A program made the translations under genes and the position numbers. From Haloarcula rubra (GTDB lineage: Archaea > Halobacteriota > Halobacteria > Halobacteriales > Haloarculaceae), in contig NZ_RKLR01000002.1 in assembly GCF_019599465.1 (NCBI RefSeq), positions 1 through 64,000 on the forward strand: a stretch of 64,000 nt of DNA, given 5' to 3'. Positions 8,627 to 60,968 of the stretch are shown here, in pieces. The notes under the pieces are model-generated. The model was not told the origin of the DNA. It saw only the letters and a program-made list of their open reading frames with translations, and made no database searches. Position 1 is the first letter of the stretch, and each line of letters begins with the position of its first letter.

Positions 8627-9859
8627 TCACACCGGGAACAGGAAGAACCCGCGGAACTCGAAGTCGGCGCCCTCGTCCTCTCGGAGGATGGCGCGTGGTC
8701 CCTGTCCGGTACGAGCGACGGCGAGTTCGGCGAAGTCGTCGCCGTCCATGTCGCCGAGGGCCGCGTCGATAGCGTACCCGTCCGCGTTCCAGTCGTCGCC
8801 GTCGGTGAACAGCAACTCGAACTCCGCGTCCTCGTCCTCGTGGACGAAGTAGCGGGCGTTCGACTCGGCCCGTCGGGTGACCACGAGTTCGTCGTAGCCG
8901 TCGTCGTCCACGTCGCCGAAGTCGATGCCGGTGGCGTAGGCGTTCCGGCCCCAGTTGCGGCCCGCCGCGAGGACCCGTTCGAAGTCGACCTCGGCGTCCT
9001 CGAAGACGAAGAAGCGGGCGTTGGACCTCGCTCGCCGGGTGACGCCCAGTTCCTCGAAGCCGTCGTCGTCCACGTCGCCGAACGCGAGGTCGGTCGGGTA
9101 GGCGTCCGACCCCCACTCGCGGCCGCCGCGGAACAGCACGTCGAAGTCCTCGTCGGCGTCGTCGTGGACGAAGAAGCGGGCGTTCCCGCCGGCCCGCCGA
9201 CCGACTGCGAGTTCGTCGACCCCGTCGTCGTCCACGTCCCCGGCCGCCAGCGCCGAGGTGGCGATGCCCCGGCCCCAGTTGCGGCCGCCGCGGAGCAGTA
9301 CGTCCTCGTCCTCGACGTCGACGACGAAGAAGCGGGCGTTGGTTCTGGCCGAGCGTCCCACGGCGAGTTCGTCCACGCCGTCGTCGTCGAAGTCACCGGC
9401 CGCCAGCGCCGTCGTGTCGGCGTCGCGCCCCCAGTTTCGACCCGCCGCGAGGAGTCGGTCGAAGTCCTCGTCGGCGTCGTCGTAGACGAAGAAGCGAGCG
9501 TTGCCGCCGGCCCGCCGACCGACCGCGAGTTCGTCGGCCCCGTCGTCGTCGTAATCGCCGAAGGCCAGCGCCGTCGCGAAGGCGCCGTCGCCCCACTCGT
9601 CGCTGCCGGAGAACAGCACCTCGAACTCCGCGTCCTCGTCGTCGAGGACCCAGAACCGCGGCCCGTCGTCGGTCCGGAGGGCGACGGCGACCTCGTCGCG
9701 CCCGTCGTCGTCGGCGTCGCCCCACGCGACGGCCGTCGGTCCGTCCGGGAGGTCGTCGAGTGGGAGCGGGATGGCCGCTGCCTCGGACGCGACACCGCTG
9801 GCGAGGGCGGTACCACCGAGCGTCGCACCGGTGTACTGGAGGTAGTCCCGTCGGTGCAT
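8627..9859 (-). CDS. secreted FG-GAP/VCBS-like propeller protein with seven repeats
   Basis: The N-terminus MHRRDYLQYTGATLGGTALASG looks like a Tat signal (RRDYLQ before a hydrophobic run), so export in folded form is likely. The remainder is seven repeats of about 45-50 residues. Each starts GD-x-DDDG-x-(D/E)EL, a DxDxDG calcium-binding loop, followed by R(A/R)x(G/S)NARFFV and a DEDxxF...GG(R/S)xWG segment. Seven units fit a closed seven-bladed beta-propeller. The ATG at 9859 is preferred over a codon at 9868 because a TATA-like TTTTACTG lies at about 9890. I cannot name a ligand. The gene stands alone between pheS and trpS. Confidence 0.8.
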   Translation of the reverse strand: MHRRDYLQYTGATLGGTALASGVASEAAAIPLPLDDLPDGPTAVAWGDADDDGRDEVAVALRTDDGPRFWVLDDEDAEFEVLFSGSDEWGDGAFATALAFGDYDDDGADELAVGRRAGGNARFFVYDDADEDFDRLLAAGRNWGRDADTTALAAGDFDDDGVDELAVGRSARTNARFFVVDVEDEDVLLRGGRNWGRGIATSALAAGDVDDDGVDELAVGRRAGGNARFFVHDDADEDFDVLFRGGREWGSDAYPTDLAFGDVDDDGFEELGVTRRARSNARFFVFEDAEVDFERVLAAGRNWGRNAYATGIDFGDVDDDGYDELVVTRRAESNARYFVHEDEDAEFELLFTDGDDWNADGYAIDAALGDMDGDDFAELAVARTGQGPRAILREDEGADFEFRGFFLFPV

Positions 9860-35880: not shown

Positions 35881-36136
35881 CGGCGCGCTGCGCGCGCCGG
35901 TTCAGCCGCGGCGAACCGACTACCGCGCGGCTTTGCCGCGCGACAGGAGCACGCCGCGATTTTTCCCCACGTTTTTGCACGACCGAGGGCGGCTTTGCCG
36001 CCCGAGAGAGTTGCAAAAAGTGGTCTTACCTCACGGGCTTCGCCCGTTCGCTATCGAGGTTCCTACGGAACCTCGCTTGCCTCGCGGCTTCCGCCGCTCG
36101 ACTGTGAGGTAGGCCCTCGCTTCGCTCGGCCCTACC
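35881..36136. repeat. hairpin array next to the thermosome 3' end
   Basis: A non-coding stretch with at least six perfect short hairpins, each with a 3-4-base loop. Stems lie at 35881-35899 (8 bp), 35924-35942 (8 bp, loop TTT), 35987-36003 (7 bp, loop TTT), 36033-36047 (6 bp, loop TTC), 36055-36075 (9 bp, loop TAC) and 36084-36097 (5 bp). TTTTTGCA at 35972-35979 and TGCAAAAA at 36012-36019 form an outer inverted repeat around the third stem, perhaps a two-way terminator. The stems differ in sequence but share the layout. It ends next to the thermosome stop codon. Confidence 0.65.
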
Positions 36137-37816
36137 CTACATCATGCCGCCCATGCCGCCGCCCATGCCGCCCATGCCGCCGGGGGCGCCACCGGGGCCG
36201 CCGGGGCCGCCTTCGTCACCGTCGCCGGACGTCGAGAGGTCGCCGGCGGCGATGATGTCGTCGATTTTGAGCACGAGGTTCGCGGCCTCTGCAGCCGAGG
36301 AGACGGCCTGGGTCTTCGCGTGGGCCGGTTCGACGACGCCGGTGTCGAGCGTGTTCTCGACGTCGCCGGTGAAGACGTTCAGGCCGGCGCTGACGTCGCC
36401 GTCCTCGTGGGCGGCGCGCAGGTCGACCAGCGTGTCGATGGAGTCGAGGCCGGCGTTCTCCGCGAGCGTGCGCGGGATGATTTCGAGCGCGTCGGCGAAG
36501 GCCTCGACGGCGAGCTGTTCGCGACCTTCGACGGAGTCGGCGAAGTCGCGCAGTCGAGCGGCGACCTCGATTTCGGGTGCGCCGCCGCCGCCGAGCACCG
36601 CGCCGTTGGCGACGGTGGAGGCGACGACGTCCAGCGCGTCCGTGACGCCGCGTTCGAGTTCGTCGACGACGTGGTCGGTCGAGCCACGCAGGAGGAGCGT
36701 GACACCGTGGGCGTTCTCGCCGCCCTCGACGTAGAACAGCCCCTCGTTCTCGTCACGGGAGACGGTCCCGTGACCGAGGTCGTCCTCGCTGGCCGAGTCG
36801 AGGTCCGAGACGATGCTCGCGCCGAGGACTTCCTTCAGGAACTCGATGTCGGACTTCTTCGCGCGCTTGACGGCGAGGATGCCCTTCTCGGCGAGGTAGT
36901 GCTGGGCCATGTCGTCGATGTTCTTCTGACAGAACAGGACGTTGGCACCGGTGGCCTCGACCTTGTCGACGAGGTCCTTGAGCTGCTGTTCCTCCTTGTC
37001 GAGGAAGTTCTGGAGCTGACTCGGGTCGTCGACGGAGAGCTGGGCGTCGACCTCCGTCTCGTCGAGTTCGATGGCCGTGTCCATCAGGAGCACCTTCGCG
37101 TCGTCGACCGAGGTCGGCATCTCCTCGTGGACGGGGTCCTTGTCGACGACGGCGCCTTCGAGGAGCTCGGAGTCGCCGGCGGAGCTGCCGGTCTGGGTCT
37201 CGATGTTGAGGTACTCGAGGTCGGCGACGACGGAGCCGTCCTCGGCTTCGACGGTGACCGCGTTGACCGCGTCGACGATGATCTGGGCGAGCAGTTCCTT
37301 GTTGAGTTCCGCGCCCTTGCCGGTCATCGACGTCTCGGCGACCTTCTTCAGAAGTTCCTCGTCGTCGGGGTCGACGTCGGTCGCGATGTCCTGAATCTCC
37401 GACTTGGCCTCCTTCGCGGCCATGTCGAAGCCCTTGATGATGGCCGACGGGTGGATGTCCTGGTCGAGGAGGTCCTCGGCGTTCTTCAGGAGTTCCCCGG
37501 CGATGGCGACGGCGGAGGTGGTGCCGTCGCCGGCCTCGTCCTCCTGCGTCTCGGCGACCTCGACGATCATCGAGGCCGTCGGGTTGTCGATGTCCATCTC
37601 CGTGAGGATGGTGACGCCGTCGTTCGTGACGGTGACGTCACCCATCGAGGAGACGAGCATCTTGTCCATCCCTTTCGGTCCGAGTGTCGAGCGTACGGAC
37701 TCCGCGACCGCGCGAGCGGCCGAGATGTTGTGCTCCTGTGCGGACTTGTCCTTCATCCGCTGGGCGTCTTCACCGAGAATTATCATCGGCTGGCCCTGCA
37801 TTTGGCGCTGGCTCAT
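36137..37816 (-). CDS. thermosome subunit (group II chaperonin)
   Basis: The 559-residue protein is a CCT/thermosome subunit. It has the N-terminal equatorial motifs [13 protein letters not shown] and [15 protein letters not shown], the ATP-site [15 protein letters not shown], apical domain features ([36 protein letters not shown]), and [11 protein letters not shown]. The C-terminus is a Gly/Met-rich tail ([14 protein letters not shown]) that projects into the folding cavity. Haloarchaea have two or three paralogues. It folds proteins in an ATP-driven double ring in the cytoplasm. The promoter has TTTATATA at 37845-37852. Confidence 0.97.
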
Positions 37817-39935: not shown

Positions 39936-42347
39936 ATGGATAGCGGGGCTACCGTCCTCGTCTGCGGGACCGACGAGGCGGCCGTCGCAGAGACGGCCCG
40001 AGGACTGGCGGAGGTGGGGGAGCAGTTCGACGTCGTGACGGCCGACGGCGAGGCGACGGCGAGCGCCGTCGGGGCGGTCGACTGTATCGTGAACGACGGC
40101 GTCGACGTGACGGAACTGGTCGAACAGATACGGCGGGACCGGCCCGGCGTCCCACTGGTCGTCTTCGGTCGCGGGTCGCCGGACGCCGTGGACGCGGTGT
40201 TGGCGTCCGGGGGAGTCGAGTACGTCCACCGGGGGACCGACGAGCAGTACGTCGTCCTCGCCCACCGCATCGAACGGGTAGTGGGCACCGACCGCGGTTC
40301 GGGGACGGTCGGCGCTGGCGAGTTCGACCGCCACGGCGAGGTCATCGAAGCGCTCGACGACGGGGTGTACGCGCTCGACGACGAGGGGGAGTTCGTCTTC
40401 GTCAACGACGGGATGGCCGACCTCACCGGGTACAGCGTGGACGAACTGCTCGGCGAGCACACCGCAGCCATCAAGGACCGCGAGACGGTGGAACTGGCCG
40501 AGTCGAAACTCGCCACGCTGCTCTCCTCGGACGGCCCCGACGACGTCGGGACGACGTTCGAACTGGAACTCCGGCGGGCGGACGACGAGACGGTGCCCTG
40601 CGAGGACCACATGACGGTGCTGTACGGACCGGACGGCGAGTTCCGCGGCACCGCGGGCGTCATCCGCGACATCACCGAACGGAAGCGCCGCGAGGAGATG
40701 CTCTCGGCCCTGCAAGAGACGTCTCGAGCGCTGATGCAAGCCCCCAGCAGAGAGGAGGTCGCGAGCATCGTCGCGGACGCGGCCGAGCGAGTCCTCGGCC
40801 TCGACATGGCCGTCGTCCGCCTCTACGACGCCGACGAGCGGGTGTTGCGGCCCGCGGCGACGACCGACACCGTGGTCGAACGACTCGGCGAGCGCCCCGT
40901 CTACGCACTCGACGAGGGTCGGCCGGGAGAGGTGTTCGCGTCGGGCGAAGCCGCGACGCTGAGCGAGTCCCACGAACTCGACGACGGCGGCCCGACGGTT
41001 CAGTCCGGCCTCTACTTCCCCATCGGCGTCCACGGCACGCTGAGCGTGCTGTCGATGGAACCCGACGCCTTCGACGACATCGACCGGCAAGTCGTCGCGC
41101 TGCTCGCGACCAACGCCGCGGCGGCGTGCAACCGGGCCAAGCGCGAACAGGAGGTGCGAGAGACCCGGGAACGCATCGCGACTATCCTCGACCGTATCAA
41201 CGGCCTCATCGAGAACACCGTCGAGGTGCTGGTCGAGGCGACCACCCGCGAGGCCGTCGAGGCCGGCGTCTGCGAGCAACTGGCCGCGACCGACCCCTAC
41301 ACCTTCGCGTGGGTCGGCCGGCCCGACGTCCGTGGGAGCGCGCTGCTGCCGAGCGAGTGGGCCGGCGACGCCGCGATAGCGATGGACGACCTCTCGGTCC
41401 CGATCGGCGACGGCACGCCCGGCAGCGTCGCCTTCACCGACCACACGACCGAGATACTGGACGACCTCTCGGCCGCCGACGGCGAGTGGGTCGACCGCGT
41501 CCGCGAGGCCGGCGTCGCCTCGGTGATGGCCATCCCGCTGTCGTACACCGACTCGACCTACGGCGTGTTGTACGTCTGTGCGGACGAACCGGACGCCTTC
41601 GACGACCGCGAGCAGGTCGTCCTCGAAGCGTTGGGTCGGGCCGTCGCCAACGCCATCAACGCCATCGAGAGCGGGAAGATTCTCTCGGCGGACAAGGTGG
41701 TCGAACTGGAGTTCACCGTCGACGACCGGGCCCTCCTGTTGAGTCGGCTGTCGGCCTCGACCGGTGCGACGTTCACGTCCGCCGGCGCGGTCACACAGGA
41801 CGACGGGTCCATCCGCCTCTACCTCACGGTCGAGGGCGGGGACAGCGAGGCGATTCTCGCCGAACTGACCGACGACGACGCCGTCGTCGGTGCCACTTGC
41901 GTCGCCGAACACGAGGGGCGTGCGCTGTTCGACGTCACCGTCGGCGAGTCGCTACTGGGGACGCTGGTCGACCACGGCGCGGTGCCGAAGGCCATCTCCG
42001 GCGAGAGCGGTATCGTCCGGTACACCATCGAACTGCCCTACGAGACCGAGGCCAGAGAGGTGTTCTCGCTGGTCGAGGACAACTACGGCAACACCGACCT
42101 CGTCGGCTACCACGAACACGAGCGGCCGGTCCAGACCCAACAGGAGTTCCGGGCGTCGCTGGCGGAACGGTTCACCGACCGGCAGGAGACGGCCCTGCGA
42201 ACCGCGTTCCTCGGCGGGTTCTTCGAGTGGCCCCGCGAGGTGGACGGCGACGAACTCGCGACGGCGATGGACATCTCGCGGCCGACGTACCACCAGCACC
42301 TCCGGGCCGCCCAGCAGAAGGTGTTCGAGGAGTTGTTCGAGCGGTAG
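39936..42347 (+). CDS. Bat-like PAS/GAF sensor with HTH-10 DNA-binding domain
   Basis: The 803-residue protein is a one-component regulator of the bacterio-opsin activator type. It has an N-terminal receiver-like domain (1-115, VLVCGTDEAA...VDCIVNDGVD) and a PAS domain at about 125-245 (GVYALDDEGEFVFVNDGMAD ... GVIRDITERKRR). Two GAF domains lie at about 250-410 and 430-590, then the Bat-associated domain at about 590-730. A C-terminal HTH-10 (residues 745-800) has LTDRQETALRTAFLGGFFEW and MDISRPTYHQHLRAAQ. It likely senses light, redox or a small molecule and controls transcription. Start is the ATG at 39936 (MDSGATVLV). The TAG stop is also the first triplet of a tandem repeat. Confidence 0.9.
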   Translation: MDSGATVLVCGTDEAAVAETARGLAEVGEQFDVVTADGEATASAVGAVDCIVNDGVDVTELVEQIRRDRPGVPLVVFGRGSPDAVDAVLASGGVEYVHRGTDEQYVVLAHRIERVVGTDRGSGTVGAGEFDRHGEVIEALDDGVYALDDEGEFVFVNDGMADLTGYSVDELLGEHTAAIKDRETVELAESKLATLLSSDGPDDVGTTFELELRRADDETVPCEDHMTVLYGPDGEFRGTAGVIRDITERKRREEMLSALQETSRALMQAPSREEVASIVADAAERVLGLDMAVVRLYDADERVLRPAATTDTVVERLGERPVYALDEGRPGEVFASGEAATLSESHELDDGGPTVQSGLYFPIGVHGTLSVLSMEPDAFDDIDRQVVALLATNAAAACNRAKREQEVRETRERIATILDRINGLIENTVEVLVEATTREAVEAGVCEQLAATDPYTFAWVGRPDVRGSALLPSEWAGDAAIAMDDLSVPIGDGTPGSVAFTDHTTEILDDLSAADGEWVDRVREAGVASVMAIPLSYTDSTYGVLYVCADEPDAFDDREQVVLEALGRAVANAINAIESGKILSADKVVELEFTVDDRALLLSRLSASTGATFTSAGAVTQDDGSIRLYLTVEGGDSEAILAELTDDDAVVGATCVAEHEGRALFDVTVGESLLGTLVDHGAVPKAISGESGIVRYTIELPYETEAREVFSLVEDNYGNTDLVGYHEHERPVQTQQEFRASLAERFTDRQETALRTAFLGGFFEWPREVDGDELATAMDISRPTYHQHLRAAQQKVFEELFER

Positions 42348-42540
42348 CGAGGGACCGAGCGGCAGCGAAGACCCTCGAAACGCAAACGGGGAGCAGCGCG
42401 ACCCGTGAGCGATAGCGAGAGTCCGAGTAGGTGAGGACCCTCGAAGCGCGACGGCGAACGGAGTGAGCCGTGAAGCAGTAGCGAGGGACCGAGCGACAGC
42501 GACGTCCCTCGAAGCGACACGGTGACCGCCAGAAACCACG
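42345..42540 (+). repeat. tandem repeat of about 67 bp starting at the stop codon of the Bat-like gene
   Basis: Three units start with TAGCGAG at 42345, 42413 and 42479, that is 68 and 66 bases apart. Units 1 and 3 share TAGCGAGGGACCGAGCG, CAGCGA and CCCTCGAA. Unit 2 shares TAGCGAGAGTCCGAG and GACCCTCGAAGCG. Each unit can fold a GAGGGAC/GTCCCTC-type stem, and unit 2 has a second ACGGC/GCCGT stem. The TAG of the first unit is the stop codon of the gene. A similar array lies at 59870-59996 on the other strand. Confidence 0.72.
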
Positions 42541-54587: not shown

Positions 54588-55712
54588 TCAGCCGCTGGAC
54601 TCGCCGGGCGTCCCGGTCTCCGTCCCGGTCGGCGTGGCAGTCTCGGTCCCGGTCTCGGTCGGTGTCTCCGTCGCGGTCCCCGACTCCGTCGGCGTCTCCG
54701 TCCCGGTGCCGCTCTCGGTCGGCGTGGCGGTCTCGGTACCGTTGTCGGTCGTCGTCTCCGTCTCGGTGGTCTCGTTCCCGGTGTCGGCGACAGTGACGTT
54801 CGCGCTGTCGGTCACCGGTTCACCGGCGACGACGTACGGACCGTCCTCCAGACTGAACGTGGTGACGTAGTCGAACGTCTGGTTGTCGTTGCTGTCGACG
54901 TGGAGCATCGCCGTGAGGGTCTGGTCTTCGGTCAACGTCACCTGACCGCCCTCGTCGGCCGTCCCGTCGGTCGTCGTCTCGGTGGCTTCCGTCTCGTTAG
55001 TCGTCTCGTTCGTCGCTGTCTCGGTCTCGTCAGCGGTGGTCTCGTTGGTCGTCTCGTTCGTCGTCGTCTCAGTCTCGTCAGCGGTGGTCTCGTTGGTCGT
55101 CGTCCCGGTCTCGTTGGTCTCAGTTGGCGTTTCGGTCGCTGTCCCAGTCTCGTTAGTCTCAGTTGTCGTCTCGTTAGCCGTCGTCTCGGTTGCCGTCTCG
55201 TTCGTCGCTGTCTCGGTCTCGTCAGCAGTGGTCTCGTTGGTCGTCGTCTCGGTCTCGTTGGCGGTGGTCGCCTCGTCCGTCGTCGTCTCCGAACCGAAGT
55301 CGGCGCCGGGGACGTCGAACAGCGTGACGGTCACTTCGTCGTACTGCCCGGGTTCGAGGTACTCCGAGACGCCGATGACGCTGTTGAGCGCGTCACCGTC
55401 CTGCAGCAGTTCGTCGTGGACGACGACGTAGCCGCCGTCCGGGAGCGTGACGTTCGACACCGTCACGGTCGTCCCGTCGGACTCCTGGTCGTCGAACGTG
55501 ACCGAGGGCGTCAGCGTCTCGTTCGCCGTCTCGTTACCCGTCGCCGTCGTCTCGTTGTCGGCCTGTGTCTCGTTTTCGGCCTGTGTCTCGTTGCCTGTCT
55601 CTGGTGTCTCTTGCTGTGCTGTCACGCCGGGCACCGCAACCACTGCTTGTGCGGCGAACAGCCCCGTCACAAGGACAGCCAAAAACACAGCGACGAATTT
55701 AGTCCGTGTCAT
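54588..55712 (-). CDS. secreted DUF7282-like protein with Asn-Glu-Thr-rich insertion
   Basis: The 374-residue protein has a Sec signal (MTRTKFVAVFLAVLVTGLFA...), a NET-rich N-terminal spacer and a DUF7282-like domain (from TPSVTFDDQESDGTTVTV to NVTVADTG). The domain is interrupted at about residues 150-255 by a low-complexity stretch of Asn-Glu-Thr repeats with about eleven NET words. NET is an N-glycosylation sequon (N-x-T), so the stretch may be heavily glycosylated. A Thr/Glu/Pro-rich tail (TETPTESGTATETP) ends the protein without an anchor. The flanking domain halves resemble those of the neighbour at 52869. Confidence 0.78.
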   Translation of the reverse strand: MTRTKFVAVFLAVLVTGLFAAQAVVAVPGVTAQQETPETGNETQAENETQADNETTATGNETANETLTPSVTFDDQESDGTTVTVSNVTLPDGGYVVVHDELLQDGDALNSVIGVSEYLEPGQYDEVTVTLFDVPGADFGSETTTDEATTANETETTTNETTADETETATNETATETTANETTTETNETGTATETPTETNETGTTTNETTADETETTTNETTNETTADETETATNETTNETEATETTTDGTADEGGQVTLTEDQTLTAMLHVDSNDNQTFDYVTTFSLEDGPYVVAGEPVTDSANVTVADTGNETTETETTTDNGTETATPTESGTGTETPTESGTATETPTETGTETATPTGTETGTPGESSG

Positions 55713-59869: not shown

Positions 59870-59996
59870 GCGCCGCGGTTCCCTGCGGTCACCGCTTCAC
59901 CGAGGGCCGCTCCCTTCGGTCGCGCCCCTCGCTACTCCGCGGGTCGCTTCGCTCCCCGCTTCGTCGAGGTTCCTCACTCCGTTCGGAGCCTCGCTA
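59870..59996 (-). repeat. two stop-anchored repeat units after an aldo/keto reductase gene
   Basis: On the minus strand TAGCGAGG begins at 59996 and at 59934, 62 bases apart. Unit 1 contains CCTCGACGAAGCG and unit 2 CCCTCGGTGAAGCG at the same relative place, as in the array at 42345. Units have hairpins such as CTCCGTTCGGAG (on either strand). The first TAG is the stop codon of the reductase. The second unit ends near 59870. Confidence 0.7.
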
Positions 59997-60968
59997 CTCG
60001 TGACCGTACACTTCCACCGGCTCGTACGGGTCTTCGAGATACGCCACGTCCGACGCCGAGAGGTCGATGTCGAGCGCTTCGACGGCGTCCTCCAGATGCT
60101 CGATGCTGGAGGTGCCGACGATGGGCGCGGTAACGTTGTCGTTCTGGAACTGCCACGCCAGCGCGATTTGGGCCATCGTCACGCCGTAGTCGGCCGCGAG
60201 TTCCTGCACGCGCTCGTTTATCTCCCGACTGCCCGGCCCCTCGGCGTAGGGCACCTCGGCGTTCTCCGTCTCGTGGACGCCGCGGGTCGTCGACTTGAAC
60301 TCTTCGTGCGGGCGCGTGAGGTAGCCGGCGCCGAGCGGGCTCCACGGCATGACGCCGACGTTCTCCCGGTCACAGAGCGGGTACATCTCGCGTTCCTCCT
60401 CTCGGTAGGCGAGGTGGTAGAGGTCCTGCATCGTCTCGAAGCGGGCCAGTCCCTCCCGGTCGCTGACGTGGAGCGCGCGCTGGAACTGGTGGGCCCACAT
60501 CGAGGAGGCCCCGATATGCCGGACCTGCCCGCGCCGAACCGCGTCGTCCAGCGCTCTGAGCGTCGTCTCGATGGGCGTGTCGTAGTCCCAGCGGTGAATC
60601 TGGTAGAGGTCGACGGTGTCCATCCCTAGCCTGTCGAGGGAGTTCGACAGTTCCTGTTCGATGGTCTTCCGCGAGAGCCCCCGTGCGTTCCGGTGGTCGC
60701 TCGCGCCGGGGAACCGGACCTTCGTGGCGACGACCTGTTCGTCGCGGTCGTAGTCGGCGAGGACGTCGCCCAGAATCTCCTCGGACTCGCCCGCCGAGTA
60801 GACGTTGGCGGTGTCGAAGAAGTTCACGCCGAGTTCGATGGCGCGCTCTATCAGGTCGCGGCTCTCGTCTTCGTCCAGCATCCACTCGCGGTCGCTGCCG
60901 AAGCTCATACAGCCGAGACATACCTTGCTGACTTCGATCCCGGTCGAGCCGAGGGTCGTGTACTCCAT
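59994..60968 (-). CDS. aldo/keto reductase
   Basis: The 324-residue protein is a TIM-barrel reductase of the YajO/YghZ-like group: MEYTTLGSTGIEVSKVCLGC, FFDTANVYSAGESEEILGDV with the catalytic Asp and Tyr, ATKVRFPG with Lys, and YQIHRWDYDTPIE with His. PLGAGYLTRP and APIVGTSSIEHLEDAV close the NADPH site. Substrate unknown. Its TAG stop is the first triplet of a repeat unit. It differs in sequence from the reductase at 27152. Confidence 0.93.
   Translation of the reverse strand: MEYTTLGSTGIEVSKVCLGCMSFGSDREWMLDEDESRDLIERAIELGVNFFDTANVYSAGESEEILGDVLADYDRDEQVVATKVRFPGASDHRNARGLSRKTIEQELSNSLDRLGMDTVDLYQIHRWDYDTPIETTLRALDDAVRRGQVRHIGASSMWAHQFQRALHVSDREGLARFETMQDLYHLAYREEEREMYPLCDRENVGVMPWSPLGAGYLTRPHEEFKSTTRGVHETENAEVPYAEGPGSREINERVQELAADYGVTMAQIALAWQFQNDNVTAPIVGTSSIEHLEDAVEALDIDLSASDVAYLEDPYEPVEVYGHE

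Follow-up and report, generated by a model that had tools for sequence, protein, structure and literature searches.

Two tandem repeats on opposite strands of the DNA analysed here raise the question of why a repeat should begin precisely at the stop codon of the preceding gene, and do so at genes unrelated to each other. The stretch under study, referred to below as the window, covers positions 1-64000 of contig C22 in a haloarchaeal genome of 4.67 Mb. The first array follows the gene of a Bat-like regulator with PAS, GAF, BAT, and HTH_10 domains (39936-42347, plus strand), whose stop codon TAG (42345-42347) is at the same time the start of the array. As the preliminary description had it, all three units of this array start with TAGCGAG (at 42345, 42413, and 42479, with spacings of 68 and 66) and have CCCTCGAA in common; TRF also detects the array (42339-42518, period 66, 71% matches). 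The GAGGGAC/GTCCCTC stem ascribed to the units, however, is exact in unit 3 only, units 1 and 2 having an imperfect form of the same hairpin. Unit 1 is composed of a GTAG tag (42344-42347) providing the stop codon, a hairpin H1 (CGAGGGACCGAGCGGCAGCGAAGACCCTCG, 42348-42377), and a hairpin H2 (ACGGGGAGCAGCGCGACCCGT, 42386-42406). Unit 2 has a decayed tag, in which A stands before the TAG, joined to its H1 (42413-42443, H1 at 42416-42443) and followed by its H2 (ACGGCGAACGGAGTGAGCCGT, 42451-42471), and unit 3 again has a GTAG tag (42478-42481) with an H1 (42482-42511) whose outer 8 bp stem is perfect.

On the minus strand, two units begin at 59996 and 59934, 62 bp apart, and the first TAG (59996-59994) is indeed the stop of an unrelated gene, encoding an aldo/keto reductase (59994-60968, minus). 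H1 of the first unit adjoins this stop codon (59965-59993), with H2 at 59939-59959, while the second unit comprises a GTAG tag and H1 (59901-59935, H1 at 59931-59901) and an H2 (59875-59895), all on the minus strand. The window also holds a third case that the earlier inspection had overlooked, directly 3′ of the thermosome (Cpn60_TCP1) gene (36137-37816, minus; stop TAG 36139-36137), where the hairpin GGTAGGGCCGAGCGAAGCGAGGGCCTACC (36136-36108, minus) adjoins the stop and is followed by a second hairpin, CGAGGTTCCGTAGGAACCTCG (36055-36075, minus). An Rfam search of the window at the gathering score gave rRNA and tRNA matches only, and the repeats match no family. Two long degenerate tandem repeats of another kind lie in predicted minus-strand genes (8712-9644 and 54609-55289, with periods of 162 bp and 30-48 bp) and are probably repetitive protein regions. 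Further along the contig, at C22:85428-85466, one strand of a near-perfect palindrome has a GTAG tag, and the opposite strand includes the TAG with which a gene stops.

The same architecture recurs throughout Haloarcula: GTAG, H1, a short spacer, and H2, together about 50-70 bp, with the next unit starting ~62-68 bp on. In its 33-nt class, H1 reads CGAGG-NNN-Y-GA-xC-GNA-Gx′-GA-R-N′N′N′-CCTCG, with variable arms, tandem G.A, and a GNA loop, and units of the same design occur with other stems, for example TAG|GGAGA...TCTCC and TAG|CGTGGTTC...GAACCACG. In a set of 33-mers hand-copied from the listed matches, with non-palindromic-looking ones left out, the outer five pairs of H1 are fixed by the search pattern and the six inner pairs are free; 95% of all cells of these inner pairs are paired, double-change cells number 77 versus 23 in shuffles, and the covariation score is 0.449 versus 0.127, a value reached in 0 of 500 shuffles. 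The covariation falls sharply once the register is slid, and in the same selected set the tandem G.A positions are kept non-Watson-Crick in 26-27 of 37 sequences. Kink-turns were dropped as candidates because no 3-nt bulge lies beside the G.A pairs. Conserved stem mismatches are also the reason why a scan requiring contiguous inner pairs missed members. The usual loop sequence is found inverted at L091, L147, and L157 (one instance being AAGCTCCCTACGGTCGCTT versus AAGCGACCGTAGGGAGCTT), which suggests template switching across the hairpin.

The G before the TAG is likewise a regular feature, preceding 12 of 13 intergenic TAGCGAGG hairpins on C22 although it was not fixed by the search, and GTAG is also found 5′ of units with stems unlike the one in the search pattern by which their loci were retrieved. 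Within arrays, where no stop is needed, GTAG stands before 24 of 56 core hairpins, the others being mostly H2 hairpins, terminator-like hairpins, and decayed tags. Because array-internal units carry it too, the tag belongs to the unit.

Registration at stop codons holds across the genus when pattern matches are set against stop distance, and the matches are not scattered at random positions. There are 128 distinct strict pattern matches, 107 of them intergenic. Among the 83 palindromic matches with a same-strand upstream gene (a statistic that takes unfiltered matches as its starting set and retains those with at least two of four inner pairs, the gene ends being those of a basic codon-score caller, verified at the genes with ortholog comparisons), the TAG is the stop of that gene in 38, and just one falls 1-49 nt past a stop, a near-absence that random insertion fails to explain. 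Most of the remaining matches lie near 59-80, 118-139, and 175-191 nt past the stop and thus represent later units. A scan that did not require CGAGG, applied to 69 array loci drawn from several Haloarcula genomes, put the start of the first hairpin at offset 0 from the stop in 48 loci and at offset 1 in another 4; TAG is the stop codon at 65 of these loci, compared with 286 of 1103 genes (26%; p=3e-31). Since the element is present at no more than a few percent of TAG genes, scanning for stems in general, with the core motif not required, yielded little signal at stops, and none in 400 kb of a relative.

The copy numbers are modest. The structured pattern GTAGCGAGG-N8-30-CCTCG has 24 copies in this genome versus 2 for the reversed control, and 0-41 strict copies in each of the other Haloarcula genomes, which is a lower bound, since stems vary. 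Across 293 genomes of the order, pattern matches are mostly few and often near the control level, with the highest counts in Haloarcula. Generic-core hairpins on C22 number 13 in intergenic and 1 in coding sequence, and 0 in the reversed sequence. The units are diverse, and recent identical copies, as active spread would leave, are absent. Taken as a whole, this is a real, structured element, genus-wide in distribution and registered at stop codons to the exact base.

What the element does to its host gene can be seen from orthologs with and without it. The regulator ortholog of Haloarcula pellucida, the closest named relative found (90% identical) and the basis for assigning the window to Haloarcula, has an array at the same stop, made of different units. 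The C-terminus of aldo/keto reductase orthologs is YGHE or YGHQ whether the element is present or absent; two close ones have a TAA stop and no element, and the occupied ones bear differing hairpins. Thermosome orthologs have TAG or TAA-G and then differing hairpins, several being without any. In further ortholog pairs the C-terminus is likewise kept (QFRWE, ERLRE, PPPKP, DFLER, LGKFE/D, and VLDEK/N), with occupied gene ends reading G-TAG and elementless members stopping with TGA, TAA, or plain TAG. Orthologs with and without the element thus share the end residue, so that the element does not truncate the protein.

In a second genus (g17), which we infer to be Halorussus, related palindromes lie mostly within predicted genes, on the sense strand. 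Among those chosen by eye for being palindromic, the TAG is read in frame 2 in 13 and in frame 1 in 1, and forms a stop codon in one more; we infer that frame 2 is preferred because its acidic residues suit halophile proteins. The peroxiredoxin genes of this genus (L330-L345) include a full in-frame unit of about 50 bp in 5 of 16 species, lengthening the gene to 555-564 nt from 513, a short remnant beginning GTAGCGAGGC in 2 of 16, and no clear copy in 9 of 16. At the position of the element, a hydroxyacid dehydrogenase and an acyl-CoA synthetase have sequence that is additional to, or fails to align with, that of solved relatives. These coding-region copies speak for spread at the DNA level.

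We therefore favour, with a probability of about 0.68, a non-autonomous, GTAG-tagged double-hairpin DNA element of haloarchaea, built like the GTAG REPs of bacteria and the IS605-derived PATEs. Where a copy is joined to the 3′ end of a gene, the TAG of its tag would serve as the in-frame stop codon; within genes, copies would be tolerated when read in a different frame, and arrays would grow and turn over through duplication and deletion of units. Its movement may have been that of a single-stranded hairpin handled by an HUH/Y1-type enzyme, one that acts in trans or has meanwhile disappeared, and stop codons may have been either preferred as sites or the places where copies were selectively retained; as a possible side effect the hairpin may serve as an mRNA 3′ end or an exonuclease block. 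Of the three ideas put forward in the preliminary description, a defined insertion site is the best supported, with the amendment that the TAG and the G preceding it are part of the unit.

The resemblance to bacterial GTAG REPs is close in several respects. As described in PMC3733652 and PMC8266576, these have an unpaired GTAG 5′ of an imperfect palindrome with conserved stem mismatches, and they are defined by a palindrome of 20-50 nt with a covarying stem, a description that H1 matches. According to PMC3733652, they lie mostly 3′ of genes, the TAG often being the stop codon, and some copies occur within ORFs. The activity of E. coli TnpAREP needs both GTAG and the stem mismatches (PMC8266576). 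The Haloarcula element differs in having an archaeal host and two different hairpins per unit, in that base-exact stop registration is the rule, and in that its arrays run head to tail, whereas bacterial REP multimers alternate in orientation (BIME); bacterial REPs often exceed 100 per genome, compared with tens of strict copies, a lower bound, in Haloarcula. A RAYT (NF047646) above the cut-off is found in 0 of 32 Haloarcula genomes. With no RAYT above that cut-off and with direct-repeat arrays, the element is not a classical REP. Integron attC sites were dropped as candidates, as there are no gene cassettes between units.

PATEs of Haloquadratum, as portrayed in PMC3119063, are IS605-derived elements with two palindromes, down to 52 bp long, and apparently mobile although intact tnpA is scarce. 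The Haloarcula element is similarly haloarchaeal and short, with two palindromes (H1 and H2), no coding capacity, divergent copies, and likewise few intact tnpA genes; unlike PATEs as described there, it has a GTAG tag and stop-codon registration, and the likeness observed is one of design. Rickettsia palindromic elements (PMC2229807) also place palindromic units in frame within protein genes, but they are 105-146 bp long and bacterial, with no stop-codon tag described. No archaeal GTAG family is named in the portion of PMC3733652 considered; REP-like palindromes are reported from archaea generally in a 2025 survey (PMC12306157), whose text contains no word that begins with “halo”. A literature search covering few subscription journals returned no description of this element family in haloarchaea.

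As to the mobilising enzyme, a RAYT was rejected as the present-day mobiliser on account of its absence above the cut-off in those 32 Haloarcula genomes, and the Y1 proteins tested are ordinary IS200/IS605 tnpA, scoring 24-30 bits against the RAYT cut-off of 80. Copy number does not rise with the number of Y1 transposases (rho -0.38, p 0.07), and two genomes with 28 copies each have no Y1 gene, for which reasons a Y1 enzyme encoded today in the same genome is unsupported as the source of mobility. Possible alternatives are that the enzyme has been lost, that the element came in from outside, or that some other mechanism is at work. In a quick motif scan of two IS605 loci, one core-like match was found (L278:3231, plus) just 3′ of a tnpB-like gene, and the occurrence of this motif near an IS200/IS605 end is a possible hint that the element and transposon ends are connected.

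The strongest competing explanation, which we regard as a serious possibility though short of even odds, is that of a functional mRNA 3′-end element, likewise among the ideas of the preliminary description, in which a very stable hairpin immediately 3′ of the stop serves to terminate transcription, hold back exonucleases, or clear the ribosome, its position being held by selection on RNA. Besides the hairpins that adjoin the stop in 48 of 69 loci, this is favoured by the placement of the G.A strand on the mRNA strand (++ 43 and +- 53 versus -- 7 and -+ 5) and by a fold that relative to shuffles is stronger for the sense RNA (z of -4.9 and -4.5) than for the antisense (-1.8) or the DNA (-1.7). 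T4 runs are rarer downstream of arrays (10/68 versus 112/287), although the arrays are themselves T-poor, which lowers the T4 counts. Hairpins with the same loop occur elsewhere with a T-tract behind them: GA-xCGNAGx′-GA-capped examples followed by a T-tract are seen at C22:192067 (minus), C22:183498 (plus), and loci L177, L223, and L172. These are likely to be ordinary terminators, the cap apparently being a hairpin module in general use among haloarchaea. Termination signals of Haloferax volcanii likewise lie at gene 3′ ends, where a hairpin can terminate transcription, as documented in PMC7237163; the main intergenic terminator given there is a T stretch, mostly missing from Haloarcula arrays, and neither a repeat family nor stop registration was found in the sections considered. 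Only 2 of 71 AG-tagged hairpins have T4 within 25 nt on their 3′ side. Against selection on RNA, A.C mispairs are no rarer than G.U: TAG-tagged hairpins, a set including some false ones, have 21 G.U and 26 A.C, compared with 7 and 0 in tRNA acceptor stems (p=0.01), and the well-formed ones have 8 and 7 (p=0.05). These equal mispairs, unlike those of tRNA, suggest maintenance at the DNA level. The retention of GTAG in array-internal units, the related units within coding regions of another genus, and the restriction of the element to a few percent of TAG genes also argue against this explanation. DNA-level and RNA roles are nevertheless compatible with each other.

Less probable, in our estimation, is that an IS605-like process places hairpins 3′ of an existing (GA)GTAG, so that the TAG predates the element and TAG stop codons are simply the commonest harmless target. 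Exact registration with unchanged C-termini would follow. GAG is the final codon of 29 of the 38 anchored genes, compared with 36 of the 164 TAG genes that have G as the last base of that codon, and the target sequence of IS605-type elements is 4-6 bp long (PMC3119063). However, elementless orthologs do not mostly have TAG, as TAA, TGA, and TAG all occur, though stops drift, and the empty peroxiredoxin alleles are without GTAG at the site. With similar reserve, we speculate that a stop-coupled process might replace or capture the stop with single-base precision, converting TGA or TAA to TAG plus a hairpin, leaving the protein unaltered and providing a new modular mRNA 3′ end. Pure tandem duplication, in which an ordinary gene-end hairpin is copied locally at each gene and nothing moves between genes, is improbable; the head-to-tail direct repeats with a period of about 65 bp and the varying order of units among thermosome orthologs bear out the earlier proposal of repeated duplication as far as array growth is concerned, but not the tag, H1, and H2 design common to unrelated genes or the single in-frame copies in coding regions of another genus. 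Chance occurrence of TAG in GC-rich, low-complexity haloarchaeal intergenic sequence, for which the weak enrichment of the 8-mer TAGCGAGG alone in the window (5 observed, 1.85 expected, with 5 reached in 3 of 100 shuffles) might be cited, is refuted by the covariation, the reversed-pattern controls, the exact stop registration, and the conserved C-termini.

The GTAG-tagged double-hairpin element favoured here bears on a family of repeats that in bacteria has been catalogued and tied to RAYT transposases: an archaeal family that has no RAYT, is registered at stops to the exact base, and comes with occupied and empty alleles would be evidence of an origin or spread of this design independent of the RAYT system. 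Peroxiredoxin genes, with GTAG-H1-H2 present, remnant, or absent in congeners, are well suited to dating how the unit was gained and lost, and tractable haloarchaea make it testable how REPs reach gene ends and whether they have an RNA function or act as DNA only. For annotation, it would mean that the element itself encodes some of the stop codons of haloarchaeal genes and some of the acidic insertions inside their proteins.
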